From a virus, in the IMG/VR virus record IMGVR_UViG_3300044608_002262, positions 1 through 64,000 of that record: 64,000 nucleotides of DNA. One strand, written 5' to 3'. Within the stretch, counting starts at the first letter, position 1. Every line of letters begins with the position of its first letter. This document shows positions 11,506-23,928 of this stretch, piece after piece. Made by a program: the position numbers and the translations under genes. A model generated the notes under the pieces. It was given only the letters and a program-made list of their open reading frames with translations. It was not told the DNA's origin and searched no databases.

Positions 11506-13251
11506 ATGGCCGAGAACTCCAAAGTTACGTGGATGGACCGGGCGATTGCTTCGGTGGCCCCGCGTTATGCCATGTCGAGGGTGATGGGTCGCTCGATTCT
11601 CAAGGAATTCGAGAGCGGCGAAGAGGTGCGGACGCAGCGGGGCGACAGCGGCGGGAAGAGTCGCCATGCGTCGAGCGAAACGAGTCGCCGGAACCGGGAT
11701 CGGCTCAAGCAAATTTGGGAAGCACGCGACATGGAGGAGCGTTACTGCTTCGTGCGCGGGATTTTAGAAAAACTGACGCAATACGTTTGCGGGGCGATCA
11801 CTTATCAGGCTCGCACGGGCGACAGCGAGTTTGACGAACAATACCAGAACTACTTTCACGATTGGTGCAACAGGGCGGATGTGACGGGTCGCTTCCGTTT
11901 CTCCGAGTTGGTGCAGCTTGGTTTCCGCGCCACGGTGCGGGACGGCGAACATGGCTGGCTCATCCTGCCGGTGGATGGCGAACTGCGTTTGCAGTCGATC
12001 GAGGGCGACCGGATCGGCGGCGACGAGCCGAGAGGGAGCGTCGATGAATACAATATCAACGGCATCGTGATCGACGATTTGGGGCGGGTTCAGCGATACG
12101 AAATCTACAAGCGCACCCGGATGGCGCAATACATCAAGGAACTGGATGCCACGCCAGACCAGTTTATTCACCTTTACCGCCCGACACGGGTGGATCAATA
12201 CCACGGATTAAGCTGGCTGAGTCCGGCCCTGCCGCACGCGCGCGACATCCACGAACTTTTCGGCTTCGAAAAAATCGCCATGAAGTTTGCGGCGGCATTT
12301 GCCGGTTTTATACGCAGGCCCGATGGTTTGAAGAACGCGGGGATGGATTGGATGACGCGCAAGCCGGGATCAGAGTCCGGGCCGGGTTCTTTCAATGTTC
12401 AGCCGGGGCTGATCAAGAGGCTCCAAGAGGGCGAAGAGATCACTTTCCCCGGCAGCACGGGCCGACCCTCCGGCAACCTGATGCAGTTTGTCGAACTTCT
12501 CATCCGCGAAATCGCCTTGGGCATGAACCTGCCTTACGGCTTTGTCTATAACATGGGCCTGCTGGGGGGCGTGACCGCGAGAATCGAAGTGATGCAGGCC
12601 ATGCGGAGCATCGCGCAGATGCAGCAGATGTTGGTGGATCGGGTGCTGAACCGAGTGAAAGACGCTGTGCTGGACAATGCGATTGCGATGGGCGCGCTGT
12701 CGCCGCATCCGCTCTGGAATTCGGGATCGTGGAATTTCGGTGCGCGACTGACCGGGGATACGGGCAACTACGTGCAAGAGCAGATCATGCTGATGCAGAA
12801 CGGGTTAATCACGCGCGGGAAGGTGATCGAAGAGATGGATGGCTCCTCGCACATGGAAATCGCCCGGACGCGCGCCCGCGAGGTGAAGGAACTTCAGGAA
12901 GTCGGAGCCGAATCCGCCGTGCCGATCGAATTGGTCGTTCCGGCGATGAGCAACGCGACCGCGCTCTTGGCCGCGATCAACAGTCCGCCGGAACCCGCGC
13001 CGGAACCGCCTCCGGGCTATGTCGGCCAAGCCGGTGAGAAAACGGCAGCGCAGGTGATCGAAGTTTTGACGGCCTACGCCGAAGGCAAGCTGGAGCGCGC
13101 CAGCGCGATCCAATCCCTCGTCTGGGTCTATGGCGTGCCTCGCGCCAAAGCCGAAGCCCTTGTGCCGGAACAAAGACCGGAACAACCCAACCAACCAACC
13201 AATACCAATGCCAACACTGCTTCCTCCTCCTCCCCAAATAACAACGGCTAA
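11506..13251 (+). CDS. Portal protein (lambda gpB-like)
   Basis: A 581-aa portal protein. Lambda-type features include the N-terminal RNRDRLKQIWEARDMEERYCFVRGI segment, a middle LVQLGFRATVRDGEHGWLIL and LQSIEGDRIG, the HLYRPTRVDQYHGLSWLSPAL motif, and a clip/wing region with VELLIREIALGMNLPYGFVYN. It forms the dodecameric ring through which DNA enters and leaves the head, and docks terminase. The C-terminal ~100 residues are a Pro/Asn/Ser-rich extension whose last 44 nt overlap the glycosyltransferase gene in another frame. Confidence 0.9.
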   Translation: MAENSKVTWMDRAIASVAPRYAMSRVMGRSILKEFESGEEVRTQRGDSGGKSRHASSETSRRNRDRLKQIWEARDMEERYCFVRGILEKLTQYVCGAITYQARTGDSEFDEQYQNYFHDWCNRADVTGRFRFSELVQLGFRATVRDGEHGWLILPVDGELRLQSIEGDRIGGDEPRGSVDEYNINGIVIDDLGRVQRYEIYKRTRMAQYIKELDATPDQFIHLYRPTRVDQYHGLSWLSPALPHARDIHELFGFEKIAMKFAAAFAGFIRRPDGLKNAGMDWMTRKPGSESGPGSFNVQPGLIKRLQEGEEITFPGSTGRPSGNLMQFVELLIREIALGMNLPYGFVYNMGLLGGVTARIEVMQAMRSIAQMQQMLVDRVLNRVKDAVLDNAIAMGALSPHPLWNSGSWNFGARLTGDTGNYVQEQIMLMQNGLITRGKVIEEMDGSSHMEIARTRAREVKELQEVGAESAVPIELVVPAMSNATALLAAINSPPEPAPEPPPGYVGQAGEKTAAQVIEVLTAYAEGKLERASAIQSLVWVYGVPRAKAEALVPEQRPEQPNQPTNTNANTASSSSPNNNG

Positions 13252-14287
13252 AGCCCCCTCCGGCAGAATTGTCGAGGTGGTGCGTGACTACGCCGGTCAC
13301 GGCATTGAGTTTGCAGGCGGAAACAGCTACGTGGTGGAAGACCCGACGCTGGCCCATCTGATGATGATGGGGGTGGCAGGCAAGATCCGTGACCGTGAGT
13401 TGTTCCAAGGCGAAGCGGGCAAGCGGGTGCTGATAACAAGGAGCGGCGGGTTTGGGGATATTCTTTTTCTGACGCCGCTGATTCGCACGCTTTTGGCGGC
13501 GGGCAACGAAGTGACTGTCTGCTGCCACGACAACTACAGCGATGCTTTGTCCGGTGTGGCCGTGCAATGGAAGCGGTATCCGATGATTTTGGCCGAGGTC
13601 ATGCCCTATGACCGGGAGTTCTGGTTGGAGGGCGTGATCGAGTTTGCCGCCGATCCGTCGAGGCACGCGGTCGATCTGTTTGCCGAAGCGGCGGGGGTGG
13701 AACTGACCGAGGGCAAGGAATTGAGCTACGCGGTGAAGCCGGAAGACACGGCTTGGGCCGAGGAGCATTTTCCCAAGAAAGCCAAGCGGCGGATCGGGGT
13801 GCAGCTCATGGCGTCGAGTCCAGCGCGGACGTATCCGCAAGACCTTATGATCGAGGTGGTGCAGTCTCTCATGCTTCATGCGGATCTTGAGGTGGCGCTG
13901 TTCGGGCCTCCGGGGGCGATTCAATTACAGGAAAACCATCCGCGCGTGCTCAACGTGGCGGCACAGGCGAAGACCTTTGCCCAGAGTGCGGGGGTCTTGG
14001 CGCAGTGCGATGCAGTCCTGGCTCCCGATTCGGCCATCGCGCATCTGGCCGGAGCCTTGAAGCTGCCGACTGTGGCCCTTTACGGATCATTCCCGTGGCA
14101 GGCGCGCACGGCGTATGCTCCGACGATCCGTGCCTTGCAGGTTTCGCTGGCTTGTTCCCCGTGTCACTGGCACGGGCGGGGTTCGGCTTTCCCGCCGCAT
14201 GGCCCGTGCGCGCGCACCGGCAGGTGTGAAGTGCTCGCCCAGATCGAGCCGCAACGGGTGGTGCGGGAAGTGATGAAAGCCTTATGA
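13208..14287 (+). CDS. Glycosyltransferase family 9-like (heptosyltransferase-like)
   Basis: A 359-aa GT-B protein. RVLITRSGGFGDILFLTPLIR (about 73-93) matches the GT9 N-terminal donor/acceptor loop. The C-terminal half has VLAPDSAIAHLAGALKLPTVALYG, the hallmark nucleotide-sugar binding DSxxxHLAGAL motif. GT9 enzymes transfer heptose or related sugars to LPS core. The chosen ATG (13208) overlaps the portal 3' end by 44 nt. Its place between portal and internal-protein genes is unusual and points to sugar modification in virion or host-surface biology. Confidence 0.82.
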   Translation: MPTLLPPPPQITTAKAPSGRIVEVVRDYAGHGIEFAGGNSYVVEDPTLAHLMMMGVAGKIRDRELFQGEAGKRVLITRSGGFGDILFLTPLIRTLLAAGNEVTVCCHDNYSDALSGVAVQWKRYPMILAEVMPYDREFWLEGVIEFAADPSRHAVDLFAEAAGVELTEGKELSYAVKPEDTAWAEEHFPKKAKRRIGVQLMASSPARTYPQDLMIEVVQSLMLHADLEVALFGPPGAIQLQENHPRVLNVAAQAKTFAQSAGVLAQCDAVLAPDSAIAHLAGALKLPTVALYGSFPWQARTAYAPTIRALQVSLACSPCHWHGRGSAFPPHGPCARTGRCEVLAQIEPQRVVREVMKAL

Positions 14288-15048
14288 AAAAAACCAAGAC
14301 TGAGCGAAAGCCGTTCGATTTCAAGAAGTGCCATTTGCACATCGGGATTCCCTGCTACGGCGGCATGATGAGCGAACCGACTGTGACAAGTTTGCTCAAC
14401 TTTCTTCTGTTGGCCCAGAAGTTGGGCCTGAATTGGACGCTGGATACAATGGTGAACGAATCGTTGGTCACGCGGGCGCGCAATAATCTGATGGCGCAGA
14501 TGTTGTGCAACAAGGCTGCCACGCATTTCATGTTCATCGACGCGGATATTCGCTTCGAGGGCACAGCACCTTTGCGGCTGATGGTGGCGGACAAGGATGT
14601 GATCGGCGGGCTGTATCCGAAAAAAAGCGCGGGTCCGGCTGATTATGTGGTCAACTTGAACCCCAGAACGAGCGTGCAGGGCGATTGTTTCACGGTGAAC
14701 ACGATTGGCACGGGATTTCTGATGTTCAAGCGGGACGTTTATGAGCGTCTGATCAAGGCGCATCCAGAGACGAAATACGGCAATGACATGAGATTCGCCA
14801 AAGAGTGCGAAGAGAATATGTATGCCATATTCGACTGCAAAATCGACGACGATGGAATGTATCTCTCTGAAGATTGGCTGTTTTGCCGCAGGTGGCAGGC
14901 ATTGGGCGGCAGGGTATGGGCGCACAGCAAGGTGCTACTGAACCATTGTGGGCATCAGGAATTTCGGGGCGACTTGCCCGAAGGATGCCGTGGGAAAACG
15001 AAGCTCCCGGCGCTGAATCATATTTTGAAGGTGAAGAAGCGGAAGTGA
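14284..15048 (+). CDS. GT-A type glycosyltransferase
   Basis: A 254-aa protein with the GT-A fold signature: an N-terminal strand HIGIPCYGG, a helix LLAQKLGLNWTLDTMVNESLVTRARNN, the metal-binding DxD in FIDADIRF (D86/D88), and a late EDWLFCRRW acidic motif. Overlaps the preceding GT9 gene by ATGA, so the two are co-translated and probably act in one glycosylation path. The sugar donor is unknown. Confidence 0.8.
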   Translation: MKKTKTERKPFDFKKCHLHIGIPCYGGMMSEPTVTSLLNFLLLAQKLGLNWTLDTMVNESLVTRARNNLMAQMLCNKAATHFMFIDADIRFEGTAPLRLMVADKDVIGGLYPKKSAGPADYVVNLNPRTSVQGDCFTVNTIGTGFLMFKRDVYERLIKAHPETKYGNDMRFAKECEENMYAIFDCKIDDDGMYLSEDWLFCRRWQALGGRVWAHSKVLLNHCGHQEFRGDLPEGCRGKTKLPALNHILKVKKRK

Positions 15049-15081: not shown

Positions 15082-18000
15082 ATGAGCCAAGCAATCGGAT
15101 ATGAGGGCGGAGTGCCGTTGACAGGGCGGATTGCGCGGGATCGGTGGGTGAAGAAGCTGCGCGATGAGGACTTGGATCGGCGGGACGCGAATCTGGGGCG
15201 GGCAGGTGCGGCGGGGGCGATTGCCGGTGCGCTGTTTCCGAGCCGCAAGATGGGGATCTATAAGCGCATGGGGATCGGCGCGGTGGCCGGGACGGCGGGA
15301 GTTTTGGGAGTTCGGCAGGCCACAAAGAATTCGCGGGATGCCTATGGCGAGCGGAGTCGCGGGGCGAAACGGGCGGAGTCGCTTCCGGCGGTAGCTGCGC
15401 TGACGGGCGCGGGGTTGCTGACGGCGAAGAAGCTGGGGCTGTTGAAGAAGCTGAAGTTTGCAGTTGGCAGTAGGCAGTCGTCAGTGGAACTGGAGAAGCC
15501 GTTTCATGGTTACAGCGAGAAGCGGCACGCCAAGACGGGCGGGCTGAATGACTCGTTCCGCAGGAAATACAACCGGGAGAACGGGAGTAACCTGAAGCGT
15601 CCGGTCACGACGGAGCCAAGCAAGCTCAAGCCGGGAAGCAAATCGGCCAAGCGGCGTGCTTCTTTCTGTGCCCGGATGGGCGGAATGCAGGGGCCGACCT
15701 CGAAGGATGGGAAGCTCACGCCGAAGGGCGCGGCCTTGAAGCGGTGGAATTGTTCGGCGGAAGTTTCCAGTGTTCAGTTTTCAGAGAAAAAAGAGAAGAA
15801 GGGGCTGAATCCTTATGTTGGAGCCACAGCGAGCGGAGCGATTTCGGGTGCGGCGCTTGGGTTTATTCCGACCATTCTCCGACGCGGCAACAGCCTAAAA
15901 ACGGCGCTCAAGGCCGGTGCGCTGGGCGGTTTGGCCAGCGGAGCGATTGTCGGCGGCGGTGCTTTGATCGGTTCGCGTATTCTGGGCGAGCCGCGCGAGG
16001 ACGAAGGATCGGCTTTTACCAAGCGCGCGGCGATTGGCGGCACGATTGCAGGTGCGGGCGCGGGGTTGGCCGGTGGGCTGTTGCTGCGTAAAACGGCCAA
16101 GGGGCAGAAGATTTTGGCCGATGCGGCGAAGAATTGGCGACCGGCTGAGTGGTTGCACAAGGGTCCGGTGGCAGGCAGCGCGGCGATCGGCGCGGTGGCA
16201 GGAGCAGGCTATGGTGGTGCAACTGGCGCGGATGAGGGGCAACAGGTGGATTCGTTGCGACATTTGCGGAAGGACTTGCGCAAGGATGTGAAAGCGGCGG
16301 CGATGAAGCTGGAAGGGAAAGTTGGCAGTGTTCAGTTTTCCGTTGGCAGCAAAGCCAAGTTTTTCATTACCCGGATCGCGGGTCGTGCCGAAGAAGGAAC
16401 GGTGGTGGGAAAGGCTTCGTCACTGAAAAGCGCGCGGCGGGTGAAGAACAAGCACGATCTCAAGTATGGGGCCACTGCCCACAAGATTGTCGATCAAGAG
16501 GGCAAGCCCGTTCTTTTTGCCCAGAAGGATTGGCGGGATGCGCGGCGGGAATCGCGTAGTGAAGCAGCTAAAGACGTGATGGTGGGCGGCGGGGCTTTGG
16601 CGGCGGGGGCTGGTGTCGGCGGCGGTGCGCTGTGGGCGGCACGGAAGTTTGGCCAGAACGCAGACAAGGCGGGCGCGGCGGCAGAGCAGGTGACAGAAAC
16701 ACTCAAGGGAGTGACCAAGCCGCGTTTTGTGCGGTCGCGTCAGTGGCTCAAAAAGCAGATGTCTTTCCCGACCTTTGGAAAAATGATGAAAAAGTTTCGC
16801 ATGAGTAGCACGGCGGCGGCGGTGGAGTTGAGTATTTTAAGGCCCAAGGGCCGAACCGCTGGATGGAGTGATTACGGCAAAATCAAAACTTCGGAGGGTC
16901 GCGCCAAGTTTGCCAAGGCACTGAATGCGGGCCGCGCGGCGGGCTGGGACAATTATGCTTCAACTCCGGCGATGAAGGATCTCTTGAAGGGCGAAAATGC
17001 GCGGGGGGCCATGCGCCAAAAATTCAGGAATTTCTTGAGGGTGCTTCCGTTGGAGAGCAAGCAACGTCTGACCGAATTTTATATGCTGCGCAAGGATTTG
17101 ACCGAGGAGCAGCGCAACGTGCGCAATGCGGTGGTGGCCGGAACGGTCGGCGTAGGTGCGGCGGCGGGAGTAGCCGCCGTGGGGTTGCGTTCGCTGAAGC
17201 GGGCGGATGAGGCCATGCGGCAGCGGTGGAGTTCGATCCCGGCGGCTCCGGCGACTTTGCCGGAAATGAGCACACCGAAGAAAAATCTGACTCCGACGAT
17301 GCAGGACAAATGGGCAGCGGCCCAAGCGCGCGCGGCGATGTCCCCCAAGGGATCGGGTCGCACGATTCGCGTTGAAGCTCCGCAGGCAATGGCGCGGCAG
17401 GCCGAGGCGCGGCGGATCAAAGAGATTCGTGCGGTATCGCGTGCGCCGATTGCCGATGCGGCGGAGGGCGCGCGGGCTTCGACCAAGGCGCGCGTAGCCC
17501 AAGGTCGTAAGTTGCAAAAAATTGCTTCGGTAGGAAATGCCGGGGTGCTGAGTCGCGGCGAGCGGATGACGGCTTCGGCAGCGTTGGCGGCTTTGCGGAA
17601 GAAGTTCCGCTTCGAGCACAATTTCGCTGTGCGCTACCGGGACAAGGATGGCAAATCGACGGGATGGAAAAGCTGGGCCAAGGGCGAAACAGTTTACGAC
17701 GAGAACATGAACCCGACGAAGATGGGGGTGGGTTCCTTGGCCAATTCGATGAATCGCTATGCGCAGCAGGGGTGGCGGGAGAGCAGGCGCGGAGCGAACT
17801 TGGTGCGCGATTTCCGCGAAGTGGCGAGCGGCCAGAAAACGAAGAAGCGGGAGTGGGAGAAATCTTATTTCAAGGATCGGGTGGCTGGTGCGCTCGGCAC
17901 GGCGGGCTTGATTGCCGGAACAGTGCTCTATCGCAAGGGCGGCAAATACGGCGCACCGAAATGGGCGCAGAAGTGGCACGGGGCGGTGAATAAAGTAGGT

Positions 18001-19344
18001 AGCGGCATCCAAAGCGCCAACAGGACGGCACAGGGCTGGCTGGACCGGCAGGTGAATGGGTTTGAGGCGCGGTTCAATGCAACGGTGCGGATGTTTTCGC
18101 AGGATAATTGGCGTCGGGCTGGATACACGGGAATGCTGACGGGTGGGCCACTTAACGTGCGGGATGAAATAGACGCCGAGCGATATTACCGCGCGGGCGG
18201 GGTTGAGTATCGCAAGCGAGACGCCTTAAAACACGCGCTGCCCGGAGCCGCCGCCGCGATCCCTGCAACTATTGCGGGTTACAAGTATGCAAAAAGTTTA
18301 GCGCGACGGGGCAAACCGTTGAGTGCGTTGGCGGTTCGAGTGGGTTTTCCGGCGGCGGCGGTTGGAGTGGTCAATTCGTTCGTTGGTCCGAGCAAGCAGG
18401 CGGTGAGTGACAGAGCAAAACGCACCCGCGAGTTTTCCACGGCGGAATACAAGCAGCTGGCCAAGAACAACTATAAAGACACAGCGCGCAAACGAGACTA
18501 CATCACCAGCAATATCGGATCTGTGGCGCAGAGTGGTTTGGCAGGCACGCTGCCCGGAATGGCTATTGGAGGGTTGCTGGCCGGAAAGCGCGGAGTAAAG
18601 CCGGGGTTGTTTGCGGGGATCGCTGGTGGAATTGCTACCCGCGCCATATTGCAAAAGCGAATCAACCGCAAAGAAGATAAGTGGATTGAAGAGGCCAATA
18701 GCGGGCAAGCGAGCAATTTGCGCCAGTGGGCTAACGACACAAAGCATACAGCAATCAATGTGGGTATTCCGCTTGGTTTGGCTGGGGCGGGTATTGGAAT
18801 TGCCGTCGCTCGCAAGCCGCTGTTTAGAGGAGCGAAAACCGCCGCCCGCAGCGCCCGAAAAATGGCAGCGACCGCGCGTGCCAAGATGCCGGTATCGAAG
18901 GCCACGCAGGATGCGCGGTTCGCCAAGGCCAAGCCTGCCCGTGCATGGGAAGTGGGCGGATCGCAGGCTGCGCCGTCGAACTGGCCGCGCCTTGCGATGG
19001 AATCACGCATGAATGCGACTTTGCAGATGTTTGAGGGCTACGGGCCGTATCAGGACTATTACTCGGCTCCGGGCTGGGATTTGCGGGATGCGCGGGGCAA
19101 GAGCGCGCGGGTCTTTGCGCCGGGAGCGAAAAAGCGGATGCGGCGACCGGCGGAGTGGCATGAGAAGAAGGATAACCAGAAGAAGCTGATTGCTGGGGCC
19201 GGGGTGGCGGCGGCTCTGTTGGCCGGAGGCGGTGGCTTTTATTGGGGCACGCAACGCGCACTGAGGCTGGGCAAGCTGGCCAAGACAAATGCCAAGTTCC
19301 GCGCGAGCAAGGGCGGCTTCGGAGACATCAGTGGCCTCAACTGA
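15082..19344 (+). CDS. Giant glycine-zipper internal/ejection protein candidate, 1420 aa
   Basis: A very basic 1420-aa protein built from about 15 Gly/Ala-rich hydrophobic segments (for example 40-52, 60-78, 246-265, 276-300, 317-335, 362-382, 499-520, 682-702, 934-950, 1051-1067, 1083-1101, 1150-1190, 1224-1243, 1370-1392) separated by Lys/Arg-rich linkers. Residues ~140-224 match the DUF6321 pattern (SEKRHAKTGGLNDSFRRKY; TSKDGKLTPKGAALKRWNC). Short strand-like peptides recur (FEARFNATVRMF, MESRMNATLQMF, GSVQFS). The start has a TTGACA box 14 nt upstream. Its place before the head protease suggests an internal head or ejection protein that is cleaved and later inserts in the host membrane; this is inference. 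Confidence 0.6.
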   Translation: MSQAIGYEGGVPLTGRIARDRWVKKLRDEDLDRRDANLGRAGAAGAIAGALFPSRKMGIYKRMGIGAVAGTAGVLGVRQATKNSRDAYGERSRGAKRAESLPAVAALTGAGLLTAKKLGLLKKLKFAVGSRQSSVELEKPFHGYSEKRHAKTGGLNDSFRRKYNRENGSNLKRPVTTEPSKLKPGSKSAKRRASFCARMGGMQGPTSKDGKLTPKGAALKRWNCSAEVSSVQFSEKKEKKGLNPYVGATASGAISGAALGFIPTILRRGNSLKTALKAGALGGLASGAIVGGGALIGSRILGEPREDEGSAFTKRAAIGGTIAGAGAGLAGGLLLRKTAKGQKILADAAKNWRPAEWLHKGPVAGSAAIGAVAGAGYGGATGADEGQQVDSLRHLRKDLRKDVKAAAMKLEGKVGSVQFSVGSKAKFFITRIAGRAEEGTVVGKASSLKSARRVKNKHDLKYGATAHKIVDQEGKPVLFAQKDWRDARRESRSEAAKDVMVGGGALAAGAGVGGGALWAARKFGQNADKAGAAAEQVTETLKGVTKPRFVRSRQWLKKQMSFPTFGKMMKKFRMSSTAAAVELSILRPKGRTAGWSDYGKIKTSEGRAKFAKALNAGRAAGWDNYASTPAMKDLLKGENARGAMRQKFRNFLRVLPLESKQRLTEFYMLRKDLTEEQRNVRNAVVAGTVGVGAAAGVAAVGLRSLKRADEAMRQRWSSIPAAPATLPEMSTPKKNLTPTMQDKWAAAQARAAMSPKGSGRTIRVEAPQAMARQAEARRIKEIRAVSRAPIADAAEGARASTKARVAQGRKLQKIASVGNAGVLSRGERMTASAALAALRKKFRFEHNFAVRYRDKDGKSTGWKSWAKGETVYDENMNPTKMGVGSLANSMNRYAQQGWRESRRGANLVRDFREVASGQKTKKREWEKSYFKDRVAGALGTAGLIAGTVLYRKGGKYGAPKWAQKWHGAVNKVGSGIQSANRTAQGWLDRQVNGFEARFNATVRMFSQDNWRRAGYTGMLTGGPLNVRDEIDAERYYRAGGVEYRKRDALKHALPGAAAAIPATIAGYKYAKSLARRGKPLSALAVRVGFPAAAVGVVNSFVGPSKQAVSDRAKRTREFSTAEYKQLAKNNYKDTARKRDYITSNIGSVAQSGLAGTLPGMAIGGLLAGKRGVKPGLFAGIAGGIATRAILQKRINRKEDKWIEEANSGQASNLRQWANDTKHTAINVGIPLGLAGAGIGIAVARKPLFRGAKTAARSARKMAATARAKMPVSKATQDARFAKAKPARAWEVGGSQAAPSNWPRLAMESRMNATLQMFEGYGPYQDYYSAPGWDLRDARGKSARVFAPGAKKRMRRPAEWHEKKDNQKKLIAGAGVAAALLAGGGGFYWGTQRALRLGKLAKTNAKFRASKGGFGDISGLN

Positions 19345-19372
19345 GTTGACTTACACGAGAAAGAAAAAATCT

Positions 19373-20239
19373 ATGAACACGGAAATCAAAAAGAAATTGG
19401 TCGCCCTTGAGGCGAATGTGGATGCGGTGCTGTTTCGCCGGATGTATGAGGACGAAGAGCAGCAGTCGGGTATGGGCGTGGGCCGTGCTTTGAATATCGG
19501 TGTGGGTGCGGCGGCGCTGGGCGCAGGCGCGTATGGCGCGAAAATTGGCGATCAGGCCATCCGCCGGAAATACGGCATGATGCCCGGAGTCGGTCGCCGT
19601 GAGGCTTATCGTCGCGCGGGAATGGATGCGATGGATGCGGCGAAGGGCTATGGCAGCAGGGCGCAGGATGCGGTAACGGGATCTGAGGGTTTCAAGGCCG
19701 GTCAGAAGGCGTGGCAGCGCAGCGCTGGTCAGGGCACGGGACTATTTTCGCGTGTTCGTCGTGTGCTCGGCGGGGCGACCCGTGCGATGACCGGCGGGCG
19801 TTTCGGCTTCGAGGCAATCGAGGGACGGGTGAATCGTTTGATCGAGCTTGCTGAAGTTCGCATCAACGAGAAGGGCCAACGCTCGGATCAGAATTTGCGC
19901 CGTGGAGCTATGGGCTTGTTGACCGGCAGCATCGGAAGCGGTGCCGGTTCACTCGTCAATGCCGGTCGGTTCAATGAGGAAAATGAAATTTATCGCAAGC
20001 GTGATGCAGCGGGTCATTCTTTGGTCGGCGGGCTGGCGGGTGTTCCTGTCGGCCTTGCCGGAGGCGCGGTTGCTGCGAGAATGCGCAGTCCGGGGGCGAT
20101 GGCGGCAACGGCAATAGGTGGCACACTCGGCGCAATAGGCGTGGGCTACGGCGTTTCGCGCGCGATGGGCGAGCGGTCGCTGGATAAGCGCAAGCGCGAT
20201 TCGCTTCTGGCGCGGTTGCAGGCCGGTCAACAGGGCTAA
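19373..20239 (+). CDS. Glycine-zipper protein related to the 1420-aa protein, 288 aa
   Basis: It starts with a helix plus strand (KKLVALEANVDAVLFRRMYEDEE) and contains Gly/Ala membrane-like segments at about 39-57, 178-196, 216-234 and 240-264. YRKRDAAGHSLVGG near 207 parallels YRKRDALKHALPG of the larger protein, so the two share ancestry. ATG at 19373 is preferred because a TTGACT box lies 21 nt upstream. Probably part of the same internal-protein set. Confidence 0.6.
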   Translation: MNTEIKKKLVALEANVDAVLFRRMYEDEEQQSGMGVGRALNIGVGAAALGAGAYGAKIGDQAIRRKYGMMPGVGRREAYRRAGMDAMDAAKGYGSRAQDAVTGSEGFKAGQKAWQRSAGQGTGLFSRVRRVLGGATRAMTGGRFGFEAIEGRVNRLIELAEVRINEKGQRSDQNLRRGAMGLLTGSIGSGAGSLVNAGRFNEENEIYRKRDAAGHSLVGGLAGVPVGLAGGAVAARMRSPGAMAATAIGGTLGAIGVGYGVSRAMGERSLDKRKRDSLLARLQAGQQG

Positions 20240-20243
20240 CTTT

Positions 20244-20834
20244 GTGAAGGCTAAAAGCGCGGATAAGCCCAAGGGCCGGTGCTGGAAGGGGTGCAAGCCC
20301 GTTCCCGGCAAAAAACCTTTCAGCAAGGGCAGTTGTTCTTGCGGGATGTCGGCGCTGATTCCGGGGATGATCGAGTTTGTGAGCGACGAGGGTAGGGCGG
20401 CAGCCGCCGCTGCGTTGCGATATAACAGATGGATAGATCAGAATCCCAATGTGGATTATGGAAAAAATCCACATTTTGGTGATTTAATGGCGACGCAGGA
20501 TCGCGTTCAGCAAAGAGGAATCGCGGCCAACAAAATGGGATGGCCGTTTGGAAAGAAAGCTCGCGCCCGCAGGGCCGAAAGAAAGACTTACAACGAGGAT
20601 ATTGATTACATCAATAATCAGTTGAAGGGACTGTCGGCTCTGACTCCCGGCATGGTGGCTTTTGCTTTGGGCGAAGACAATCGGCCTCGCAATAACAACG
20701 GGCAATTTCTGGCCAATGAGACGGGCGGGGCGGATCCGAATTCGATGGCGGCGGCATACGGCAATGTCGAAGCGGAGAAGATGGCGCGGCGGCAGGGGCT
20801 TATGGCTCGGCTCAAGGCGATGATGGGGCGGTAA
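20244..20834 (+). CDS. Internal-protein family member, 196 aa
   Basis: Starts at GTG 20244, 4 nt past the previous stop. The N terminus is Lys/Cys-rich (GRCWKGCKPVPGKKPFSKGSCSCG). Two near-identical peptides, SALIPGMIEF (near residue 36) and SALTPGMVAF (near 130), each open a charged domain. The ~80-residue spacing indicates an internal duplication. Grouped with the two preceding genes by basic composition and peptide style. Function unknown. Confidence 0.55.
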   Translation: MKAKSADKPKGRCWKGCKPVPGKKPFSKGSCSCGMSALIPGMIEFVSDEGRAAAAAALRYNRWIDQNPNVDYGKNPHFGDLMATQDRVQQRGIAANKMGWPFGKKARARRAERKTYNEDIDYINNQLKGLSALTPGMVAFALGEDNRPRNNNGQFLANETGGADPNSMAAAYGNVEAEKMARRQGLMARLKAMMGR

Positions 20835-21221: not shown

Positions 21222-21254
21222 GAAAACCATTTAGTTGACTTGGAGCCTGCGGGT

Positions 21255-22529
21255 ATGGACTCGCAGGTTTTTCAATTTCAAGCAGGGAGCATCTCCGGTC
21301 GCGTGGATCGGGATGCTGGCATCATTCGTGGGGCGGCGGTGATCACGGGTGGCGTGACGGCGCGGGGGCATGACCTCGAAGTGGATGACACGACGCTGGA
21401 GCAGATCGTGACGTGCGGAAACACGAAGGGGCGGGTGCAGGTGAAGCTGAATCACAAAGACCCGCAAGCTCTGCAAAGTATTTGCGGCTACCTCGAAGGC
21501 TTTCGCCGCGAGGGCGACAAGGTGGTGGCCGATTGGCATTTGCTCAAGTCGCACGAGGAATTCGACGCGCTGATGGAGCGGGCGACGCGGATGCCGGATT
21601 GCTTCGGGCTTTCGGCGGCGTTTTCCGGTCCTCCGAAGGGGGAGAAGCGCAAGGACGGGAAGCAGGCCGCGCGCTGCGAGGAGCTACTGGCGGTGGATTG
21701 CGTGGCGATGCCTGCGGCGAATCCGGCGGGGCTTTTCGAGGCCGTGGTTGACACGGCGACAAATGGAAAACCTATGAACGATAAAATCGAACAAAACGAG
21801 GGTGCTGCCCCGGAGCCGACTTTGGCCGAGGTGCTGGCAGCGGTGCAGGAGTTGCAAGAAGTGGTGACGGCGGTGGCTAATCGCCAAGCCGAGGTGGATG
21901 CGCTGATCGAAGCGAACACGCCGCTTTCCATGGACGAACTGGCCGAACTCGACGCCATGAGCGACGAGCAACTGGCCGAGCAGGGGATTACCCGCGACGA
22001 ACTGAACAATTTGATCGCCAACGTGGCGGAAGCCGAGGGCGGCGAAGCCGAAGGCGAAGGGGAATTGGTTGGAGCAGGGCATAGCAGTGAGGGCAACGAT
22101 AGCGCCGCTGCCGGTGGCGAGGCCGCTGGTGCGGCGCTATCCGCTCTGCAACGCCGCGTGGTCGAGCTTGAAGGCAAGCTGGCCGAGAAGGCGCAGAACG
22201 ACGAGGCCGCTAAAATTCAGCACGCTTTCGATGTTCTGGAAGAGAAGCAGAACGCTCTCATCGCGCAGAACGAATCGCTCCAGCGCATCGTCAAGATGCA
22301 CGGGATCAAGGCGGCGAGCGCCGGAACCGAAGGGGTGAAGATGTTCTCCGGCGAAGGAGACACCGAATTCAACAGCATCGTCGCGGCCAAGGCTACCGAA
22401 CTGGAAGCCAGTGGAAAGCCCACTGCCGCCGCACGGGCCGAAGCGATCCGCTTCGCCATCAAGAGCAACCCGCGCGCTTACGCCGAGAGCCTGTCGGCTC
22501 GCGGTCTGATCAAGCTGGCGGACGCCTAA
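21255..22529 (+). CDS. Prohead protease with C-terminal scaffold domain
   Basis: A 424-aa protein. Residues ~1-165 look like a head maturation protease: SISGRVDRDAGIIRGAAVITGGVTARG, the conserved VKLNHKDPQALQSICGYLEGFR (His in NHK), and DCFGLSAAF with the likely nucleophilic Ser, then CEELLAVDCVAMPAANPAGLF. Residues ~175-424 are acidic coiled coil typical of scaffold. In lambda-like phages the protease removes itself and scaffold from proheads. Start ATG 21255 (TTGACT box 14 nt upstream) is chosen over an in-frame TTG. It is directly upstream of decoration and capsid genes. Confidence 0.82.
   Translation: MDSQVFQFQAGSISGRVDRDAGIIRGAAVITGGVTARGHDLEVDDTTLEQIVTCGNTKGRVQVKLNHKDPQALQSICGYLEGFRREGDKVVADWHLLKSHEEFDALMERATRMPDCFGLSAAFSGPPKGEKRKDGKQAARCEELLAVDCVAMPAANPAGLFEAVVDTATNGKPMNDKIEQNEGAAPEPTLAEVLAAVQELQEVVTAVANRQAEVDALIEANTPLSMDELAELDAMSDEQLAEQGITRDELNNLIANVAEAEGGEAEGEGELVGAGHSSEGNDSAAAGGEAAGAALSALQRRVVELEGKLAEKAQNDEAAKIQHAFDVLEEKQNALIAQNESLQRIVKMHGIKAASAGTEGVKMFSGEGDTEFNSIVAAKATELEASGKPTAAARAEAIRFAIKSNPRAYAESLSARGLIKLADA
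21774..22529 (+). CDS. Nested scaffold protein (internal start), 251 aa
   Basis: An in-frame ATG at residue 174 of the protease gene begins MNDKIEQNEGAAPEPTLAEVL, exactly at the protease/scaffold boundary. TTGACA lies 20 nt upstream, the same box seen at true unit starts. Lambda makes its scaffold Nu3 from such an internal start in gene C, so separate scaffold synthesis is likely. The product is acidic and helical (DELAEL, DEQLAEQGITRDELNNLI) with a coiled coil near its middle. Confidence 0.6.
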   Translation: MNDKIEQNEGAAPEPTLAEVLAAVQELQEVVTAVANRQAEVDALIEANTPLSMDELAELDAMSDEQLAEQGITRDELNNLIANVAEAEGGEAEGEGELVGAGHSSEGNDSAAAGGEAAGAALSALQRRVVELEGKLAEKAQNDEAAKIQHAFDVLEEKQNALIAQNESLQRIVKMHGIKAASAGTEGVKMFSGEGDTEFNSIVAAKATELEASGKPTAAARAEAIRFAIKSNPRAYAESLSARGLIKLADA

Positions 22530-22950: not shown

Positions 22951-23928
22951 ATGTTCACTAACACAGACGCAGAGATCCGCCCTGAATTGCAGGCGGTAGT
23001 TCAGGAAGCACTGGCGGCGGAGCAATTCTTCATCGCGGACAAAATTTTCCCTTCTTACGCTTCGGCGACCAAGACGGGCGAGTATCGCAAAATCAAGAAG
23101 GGCACCGGCAACATCCTTGCCATGACCAGCAGCGACAGCACCTTGCGTGCGCCGCGCACGGCCTACAAGGAAGTTGATCGCACCTATGAGAAAGCGTCCT
23201 TTGCTTGCAAAGATCGCGGTCTGACCGAGGTGATCGACGACAGCGATCAGGCTGATCTGTCGCGCTTCTTCGACGCACAGGCCACGAGCACCCGCTTGGT
23301 GCTGAACAACATCCTGCGTGCGCAGGAGGCCCGTGTGGCCGCGAAGATCATGGATGAATCGACTTGGGGCAAGACCGATGCGGTTGTCGCTTTGACCGAG
23401 GCGAACATCAACACGATCGACATCGCCCAGGACATCGAGGAAGCCATCGCCCGCGTGCAGAAGCGTGGCGAACTGGTCAACACGATGATCATGAGCCGCA
23501 ACATCTGGAAGCGCGTTCGCCGCTCGAAGCTCTTGCGTCAATACATCTTCGGCGACAATGCCGGGGGCAAGATCATCACCAAGGATGTGTTTCTCAGCAC
23601 TTTCCAAGACAGCGCGCCGATTCAGGCCATGTTCATCGCGGAGGCTGTTTACAGCACGGCGAAGAAGGGCGAAGCGGTTGCGGACAACAAGCTCTCCTAC
23701 ATCTGGGGCGACGACTACATCTGGCTCGGACACGTGGCCGGTGGTTCCCCGGACATGGGCGGCGCTGGCCGCTGCATCTACTGGCAGGAAGACGCGGCGT
23801 TCAGCTACGTGGTTGAGACGTTCCGCGACGAACCCCGCCGCAGCGATGTGGTGCGCGTTCGCCAGCACAACGAGGAGCACGTGGTCAACGAGTGTGCAGG
23901 CACGCTGATCAAAACGAACTACGCTTAA
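22951..23928 (+). CDS. Major capsid protein
   Basis: A 325-aa HK97-fold capsid protein of the lambda gpE/P22-like class. It has an N-terminal helical arm (RPELQAVVQEALAAEQFFIADKIFP), a central RGLTEVIDDSDQADLSRFFDAQATSTRLVLNNILRAQE spine helix, IARVQKRGELVNTMIMSRNIWKRVRRSKLLRQYIFG, and SYIWGDDYIWLGHVAGG. AACGAGGAG Shine-Dalgarno site. It is followed by the strongest terminator of the region, as expected for the most abundant virion protein. Confidence 0.9.
   Translation: MFTNTDAEIRPELQAVVQEALAAEQFFIADKIFPSYASATKTGEYRKIKKGTGNILAMTSSDSTLRAPRTAYKEVDRTYEKASFACKDRGLTEVIDDSDQADLSRFFDAQATSTRLVLNNILRAQEARVAAKIMDESTWGKTDAVVALTEANINTIDIAQDIEEAIARVQKRGELVNTMIMSRNIWKRVRRSKLLRQYIFGDNAGGKIITKDVFLSTFQDSAPIQAMFIAEAVYSTAKKGEAVADNKLSYIWGDDYIWLGHVAGGSPDMGGAGRCIYWQEDAAFSYVVETFRDEPRRSDVVRVRQHNEEHVVNECAGTLIKTNYA

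Follow-up and report, generated by a model that had tools for sequence, protein, structure and literature searches.

What do the three adjacent genes at positions 15082–20834 of this viral DNA encode, and what are the short phenylalanine-centered peptides that recur in their products? The DNA considered here (the window, 64,000 nucleotides, positions 1 to 64,000 of IMG/VR record IMGVR_UViG_3300044608_002262) is part of a 66.8-kb virus record. An earlier note, made from the letters alone, had described three adjacent basic proteins of 1420, 288, and 196 residues and imagined an internal-head polyprotein; its coordinates and sizes are correct.

15082–19344, + strand: giant modular cargo protein (putative), 1420 residues
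19373–20239, + strand: 288-residue accessory protein with three Gly/Ala segments
20244–20834, + strand: 196-residue accessory protein

From sequence comparison, we put the chances at about even that the 1420-residue protein (the giant) is internal head cargo of the polyvalent type, ejected, with modules that each keep a loading tag like those of phages T4 and P1. What we call the tag is a Phe-centered peptide of ~12 residues, typically found just ahead of a module. A broader proposal is that the tag is portable, is tuned to each lineage, and, standing ahead of almost all modules of the giant and at the start of its small companions, constitutes a multivalent loading code common to portal, scaffold, and cargo, so that a domain placed behind it becomes capsid cargo. 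This proposal is tentative, and we would not call it probable.

Recurrence of the tag in related phages

The queries used to gather relatives from viral contigs were the whole giant, its C-terminal module, two internal modules, and the scaffold. The first set comprises 18 loci taken as distinct (loci carry L numbers); the second comprises 20 further contigs, or 15 after removal of the near-duplicates L037, L038, L043, L049, and L055. In the first-set giants, Phe makes up 5.9% of the 25-residue stretches that precede module anchors, compared with 2.1% of residues elsewhere. Of 67 distinct tags, 61 have Ser, Asp, Glu, Ala, or Gly after Phe, and 22 have Glu directly before it, compared with 37 of 484 other Phe residues; the 67 tags are not independent, as the loci are related. 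The junction anchors are regular expressions set on the first set and left unchanged for the second, in which Phe is present at 29/29 junctions (8.0% versus 2.4% elsewhere).

Within a first-set genome, nonhomologous junctions resemble one another more than they do when exchanged between genomes (12.32 versus 10.86 permuted, standard deviation 0.32, 0/2000), and the likeness persists in a reduced set of 11 loci (1/2000). Control peptides taken 25 residues inside modules show no within-genome likeness (1608/2000). This lineage-specific resemblance bears on the idea that the tags are solvent-exposed linkers or caps before membrane hairpins, their Phe anchoring at the membrane interface without any partner. 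The tags do flank Gly/Ala hydrophobic modules, often as basic residues plus one aromatic. Generic caps, however, would not be expected to be alike across nonhomologous junctions in a lineage-specific manner, nor would they be expected ahead of DUF6321, a nonmembrane domain that tags also precede. We consider this explanation improbable.

A blind motif search places the tag on top in L009, L018, L023, L017, and L028 of the first set (0, 0, 0, 2, and 1 of 40 shuffles, respectively); in most other first-set loci the tag is not top or is not significant. In the second set, tag peptides are top in L052 (0/40), L092 (1/40), L039 (4/40), L042 (6/40), L050 (9/40), and L057 (31/40), and motifs other than the tag lead in the remainder of the 15 loci. 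The forms recovered include FxTPAxR in L018 and L023, PGMIEF in L009, and an LSAKLRGLKEF type in L052. Pattern counts, which cover 12/18 first-set and 13/15 second-set loci (L040 and L052 are omitted because of their closeness to L039 and L053), point the same way. The extended pattern, [SE][AS][KR]-hydrophobic-x(3-6)-F, occurs 12 times versus 1.5 in shuffled sequences in the first set and 19 times versus 1.6 in the second, and the core pattern occurs 30 times versus 7.6 and 37 times versus 8.1 (0/300 in all four cases); both patterns were written after the second-set motifs had been seen, so that the second-set counts are not blind. The tag is not confined to giants: of 33 accessory proteins, 12 have a strict tag within their first 45 residues, compared with a rate of 0.03 per protein over the rest of these sequences. 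As judged from sequence, the family thus appears to have what is characteristic of capsid targeting of the T4 and P1 type, a short signal common to otherwise unrelated cargo.

Could the tags instead be repeats at the level of DNA, or scars of the recombination that shuffled the modules? Modules really are shuffled (see below), and codon agreement at identical tag residues is above expectation in L009 (14/17, expected 0.53), in L017 (8/17, expected 0.32), and for the SVQFS pair of the window (4/5, expected 0.40); another set in the window gives 3/6 (expected 0.39). In L018 (13/34, expected 0.40), L023 (10/20, expected 0.47), and L052 (16/55, expected 0.28), however, agreement is no higher than codon usage predicts. 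Because codons in these three phages are as varied as chance would make them, the likeness of their tags does not stem from recent DNA duplication, and selection therefore acts on the tag peptide in these phages. An origin of the tags as DNA repeats is disfavored and, in our estimation, very improbable.

Tags and modules of the window proteins

Tags in the window were scored with a leave-clade-out matrix built from 53 hand-picked tag contexts of other clades. This matrix finds 6 sites of at least 7 bits in the three proteins versus 1.4 in shuffles (0/200), and site density is 3.2 per 1000 residues in the three proteins compared with 0.7 in other window open reading frames. The short peptides that the earlier note had suggested might be capsid-targeting or cleavage signals are all present, are found by the other-clade matrix, and behave like address or processing tags, although they are weak on the evidence of the window alone. 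That list mixes tag variants (FNATVRMF, MNATLQMF, SVQFS, and the PGMIEF type), and it omits the strongest matrix site, TREFSTAE, as well as the N-terminal tag of the 288-residue protein and comparable motifs of the portal and scaffold.

15103–15414, + strand: module A, Gly/Ala hydrophobic pair, residues 8–111 of the giant; also in L003 (946–1047) and L006 (670–766)
15529–15747, + strand: DUF6321 domain, residues 150–222 (PF19846, 3e-13)
15766–15783, + strand: tag SSVQFS ahead of module B, 9.4 bits
15808–16293, + strand: module B, residues ~243–404, Gly/Ala segments, end near DEGQQVD
16324–16341, + strand: tag GSVQFS, 5.3 bits
16507–16524, + strand: tag PVLFAQ ahead of module R, 7.4 bits
16525–16785, + strand: module R, residues ~482–568
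18064–18099, + strand: extended tag EARFNATVRMFS
18172–18432, + strand: YRKRDA module, residues ~1031–1117; motif also in the 288-residue protein
18424–18447, + strand: tag TREFSTAE, residue 1118 of the giant, 13.3 bits, the strongest in the giant
19000–19035, + strand: extended tag ESRMNATLQMFE ahead of the C-terminal anchor module
19072–19281, + strand: C-terminal anchor module J (GWDLRDARG..), in 18/18 giants of the first set, which was gathered largely by module J itself
19409–19435, + strand: N-terminal tag EANVDAVLF of the 288-residue protein
20349–20378, + strand: tag SALIPGMIEF in the 196-residue protein, 12.3 bits
20634–20663, + strand: tag SALTPGMVAF in the 196-residue protein, 8.2 bits

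All three proteins are basic, with Lys plus Arg at 19, 15, and 17% versus Asp plus Glu at 8, 9, and 9% in the 1420-, 288-, and 196-residue proteins, respectively. They contain 16, 3, and 1 Gly/Ala-rich hydrophobic segments, so the count of 15+4 given previously is about right. Shuffled means are 1.9 (maximum 6), 0.6 (maximum 3), and 0.1 (maximum 2), which leaves the giant far above its shuffles, and the giant also has 82 GxxxGxxxG-like patterns compared with 56.9 in shuffled sequences (maximum 77). The YRKRDA motif is, as claimed, common to the two larger proteins (YRKRD at residue 1043 of the giant and residue 207 of the 288-residue protein), and accessory proteins of three other phages (L018, L028, and L029) contain YRKRD as well. 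The further suggestion of a set of repeated zipper modules fails. Self-BLASTP finds no repeat at E 0.01, and 36 profile–profile comparisons of 9 module alignments gave only five matches above 20% probability, each of 16–33 columns; an internal repeat array was rejected on both grounds. Pfam and PHROG recognize no domain in the 288- and 196-residue proteins, and the former has no relatives by sequence search.

Three other features of these proteins were seen. The motif F/Y-x-Q-x-x-W-R-x-A, top of the blind search in the window (0/40 shuffles), lies outside the tag at residues 347–355, 479–487, 893–901, and 1005–1013 of the giant. The 196-residue type of protein has a Cys-rich start (CWKGCKPVPGKK..GSCSC, 20271–20345), with equivalents in L009 and L011, that is zinc-ribbon-like by eye. 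A PRN..GQ[FY] stretch of the same protein (20685–20760) is also found at the start of separate accessory proteins in L036, L041, L050, L052, and L053.

Relatives, mosaicism, and payloads

Relatives of the giant are found in uncultured viral contigs only. For its C-terminal module, a search of 84,980 bacterial and archaeal genomes confirmed no relative, and named phages gave nothing beyond 15-residue matches; the matches of the whole giant to named phages lie around the DUF6321 stretch (among the matches listed, 40 of 182 records). The portal gene is upstream of the giant gene in 18/18 first-set loci, and a protease–scaffold gene is downstream in 15/18, with none shown in L018, L023, and L024. 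Module order varies: the start of module A is residue 8 of the window giant but residue 946 in L003 and 670 in L006, and the DUF6321 stretch is at residues 135–138 in the window giant versus 452 in L009. The giants are mosaics, as polyvalent proteins are: their modules change places from phage to phage and show no mutual homology in the profile comparisons.

Among 16 giants scanned with Pfam, InPase is present in two (7.5e-45 and 1.7e-43) and DUF6321 in seven, and a DNA-ligase OB match below the cut-off is found in two. These two are L018 and L023, in which the match, just under the cut-off, lies at the N terminus of the giant together with a KLDG motif seen by eye, which suggests that in these phages the head protein carries a ligase-like payload. 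An HExxH-like motif, also seen by eye, lies in the N-terminal third of the giants of L006, L019, L020, and L028; this region has no Pfam match and is possibly a self-processing or effector domain. An ADP-ribosyltransferase was suspected by eye at the N terminus in L002, L003, L011, L014, L015, and L024 and is not claimed here; the four scanned (L002, L003, L011, and L014) have no Pfam match there. A MuF head protein was also considered and rejected, with no MuF family in the scans of the 16 giants. Elsewhere, DUF6321 is a stand-alone gene between the scaffold and capsid genes in 2/2 podophages examined, and the single myophage examined has it within a hypothetical protein adjoining the terminase gene.

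Portal, scaffold, and protease

The order of genes in the window is portal, family-9 glycosyltransferase (GT9), phrog_1574 protein, giant, 288-residue protein, 196-residue protein, a 104-residue open reading frame, protease–scaffold, a decoration-like protein, and major capsid.

11506–13251, + strand: lambda-type portal (PF05136, 1.4e-43)
11593–11616, + strand: motif SILKEFES in the portal N-terminal arm, 12.7 bits
13130–14287: family-9 glycosyltransferase
14284–15048: second protein between portal and giant (phrog_1574)
21240–22529, + strand: prohead protease–scaffold fusion, with a protease domain (21255–21746) that resembles T4 gp21
22332–22355, + strand: Phe motif GVKMFSGE of the scaffold tail, preceding the C-terminal region, below 4 bits by the matrix
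22951–23928, + strand: major capsid protein (phrog_1005, 5.1e-33)

A head protease was said to follow the three genes directly. A T4 gp21-like protease is indeed nearby, but the 104-residue open reading frame intervenes and the protease–scaffold gene starts at 21240. On the other side, the GT9 and phrog_1574 genes (13130–15048) separate the portal from the giant; L002 has its GT9 gene in the same place, and in L014 and L015 the gene precedes the portal.

The protease was recognized by fold only, there being no protease match in Pfam or PHROG and no useful sequence match in the PDB. The best PDB match of its model (predicted local distance difference test score, pLDDT, 74.7) is T4 gp21 (5jbl; Foldseek probability 1.00, template modeling score 0.50) with an E value of 3.1e-3; no match reaches 0.001 or better, and herpes proteases are among the next. 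The domain is thus predicted from its model to have the T4 gp21/herpes assemblin fold. Residues His67, His100, and Ser120 are invariant in the protease alignment and may have a catalytic role.

Phe motifs resembling the tag are present in the N-terminal arm of 17/17 portals looked at and before the C-terminal region of 15/15 scaffold tails, both counts being by-eye readings of printed sequences. The portal and scaffold motifs are closer to cargo tags than are other Phe contexts (Mann-Whitney 6e-10 and 7e-5, respectively).

These motifs, and the protease itself, raise the chief rival to a loading signal: the tags could be cleavage sites of the phage head protease. The giant would then be a polyprotein divided at its module junctions inside the prohead, and the portal arm and scaffold would be cut at similar motifs. 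A protease of the gp21-like class is described as cutting the portal, ejection proteins, and itself in phage SPN3US (PMC10052503), and the Glu enrichment before Phe, followed by a mostly small or acidic residue, would be in keeping with a protease site. The SPN3US enzyme, however, cuts after Glu at AXE (PMC10052503), yet Glu is at the −1 position in only a third of the tags and in neither SVQFS nor the RMF/QMF forms. The conserved part is also ~12 residues in many copies (SAKL...F), long for such a site, and tags at the extreme N terminus of small proteins are better suited to targeting. We regard cleavage as an unlikely explanation of the tags, but by analogy with T4 it may coexist with targeting.

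Proposed role in the phage head

We propose that 15082–20834 encodes internal head cargo, a giant mosaic and two small proteins, all three of which would probably be packed in the prohead and then ejected with the DNA. The giant may work as a polyvalent protein, a string of units each consisting of a tag and a module, in which each tag would be a capsid-loading signal like the N-terminal signals of T4 internal proteins and P1 DarB. The many tags in one chain look as though internal proteins, each with its own tag, had first been joined and later shuffled. Docking would be to the capsid, the scaffold, or the protease. From position, composition, and comparison, we infer ejection and membrane insertion, whereby, during entry, the Gly/Ala hydrophobic modules would become embedded in the host membrane or pass through it; in relatives, they appear to accompany enzyme payloads (InPase and ligase-like). 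The earlier idea of an internal-head polyprotein is retained here as to the kind of cargo, to which the upstream portal gene in every first-set locus, the mosaic modules, and the enzyme payloads of relatives point, and is dropped as to repeated modules.

Several observations weigh against this proposal. The tags of the window are degenerate, and simple tests detect them only weakly: the blind search of the three proteins puts a non-tag motif on top, shuffles match the core patterns in 50/300 and 70/300 cases and the extended pattern in 5/300, and the within-genome junction test on the window alone gives 9.2 versus 8.8. Beyond the window, five first-set junctions have no Phe, the anchors matched none of four deep relatives (L051, L057, L062, and L092), and the second-set within-genome test is only suggestive (15.28 versus 14.36, 134/2000, 25 pairs; control 981/2000). 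A strict N-terminal tag is missing from 21 of the 33 accessory proteins. The portal and scaffold motifs do not covary with cargo tags genome by genome (portal mean 814/5000 and maximum 358/5000, control 78/5000; scaffold 4302/5000 and 2114/5000). As for payload, the window giant has no recognized enzyme domain, DUF6321 being its sole Pfam domain, and the model of the ADP-ribosyltransferase-like N terminus of relatives is too poor to use (pLDDT 33).

Comparison with known systems

How proteins are chosen for the phage head is understood in few cases, such as T4 and P1. With a tag readable from sequence, ejected internal proteins would be recognizable in uncultured phages and its binding partner would become a directly testable question; the tag could also serve as a natural address for loading proteins into phage-derived shells. 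Searches of the open-access literature on polyvalent proteins, capsid targeting and DarB, DUF6321, prohead proteases, and glycine-zipper ejection proteins listed no paper with repeated junction tags described in its title or opening abstract lines.

Phage polyvalent proteins are mosaic and portal-associated and include InPase, a domain also described as fused to portals (Iyer et al. 2017, PMC5512222). The window family is similarly large, multidomain, and mosaic, lies by head and portal genes, and has InPase in relatives. Unlike polyvalent proteins, the window giant lacks a recognized effector domain, and the repeated junction tag of its family is not among the features given for polyvalent proteins in the portions of PMC5512222 available. 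In SPN3US, the portal and ejection proteins are processed after AXE by the head protease, and in SPN3US and phiKZ such a protease acts on these proteins at a short motif (PMC10052503; PMC5694885), a situation reminiscent of the portal, cargo, and protease genes here; in contrast to AXE, the motif here is centered on Phe, and Glu is not constant.

P1 DarB has an N-terminal capsid-targeting signal for which the first 30 residues are sufficient (PMC9024508), and P1 DarA–Hdf pairs bind the inner capsid surface (PMC12810830). The giant resembles DarB as a very large putative head protein with a short packaging-type signal, but the signal of DarB is N-terminal, whereas the tags here recur along the chain. 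T4 internal proteins are diverse and have only a targeting sequence in common (PMC3012670). No sequence relation to them is claimed, and the window family differs in having many internal copies of its tag per chain. As in T4 (PMC3012670; PMC5694885), however, unrelated cargo appears to share one short signal, a gp21-like protease is nearby, and several stand-alone accessory proteins bear the tag at their N termini.

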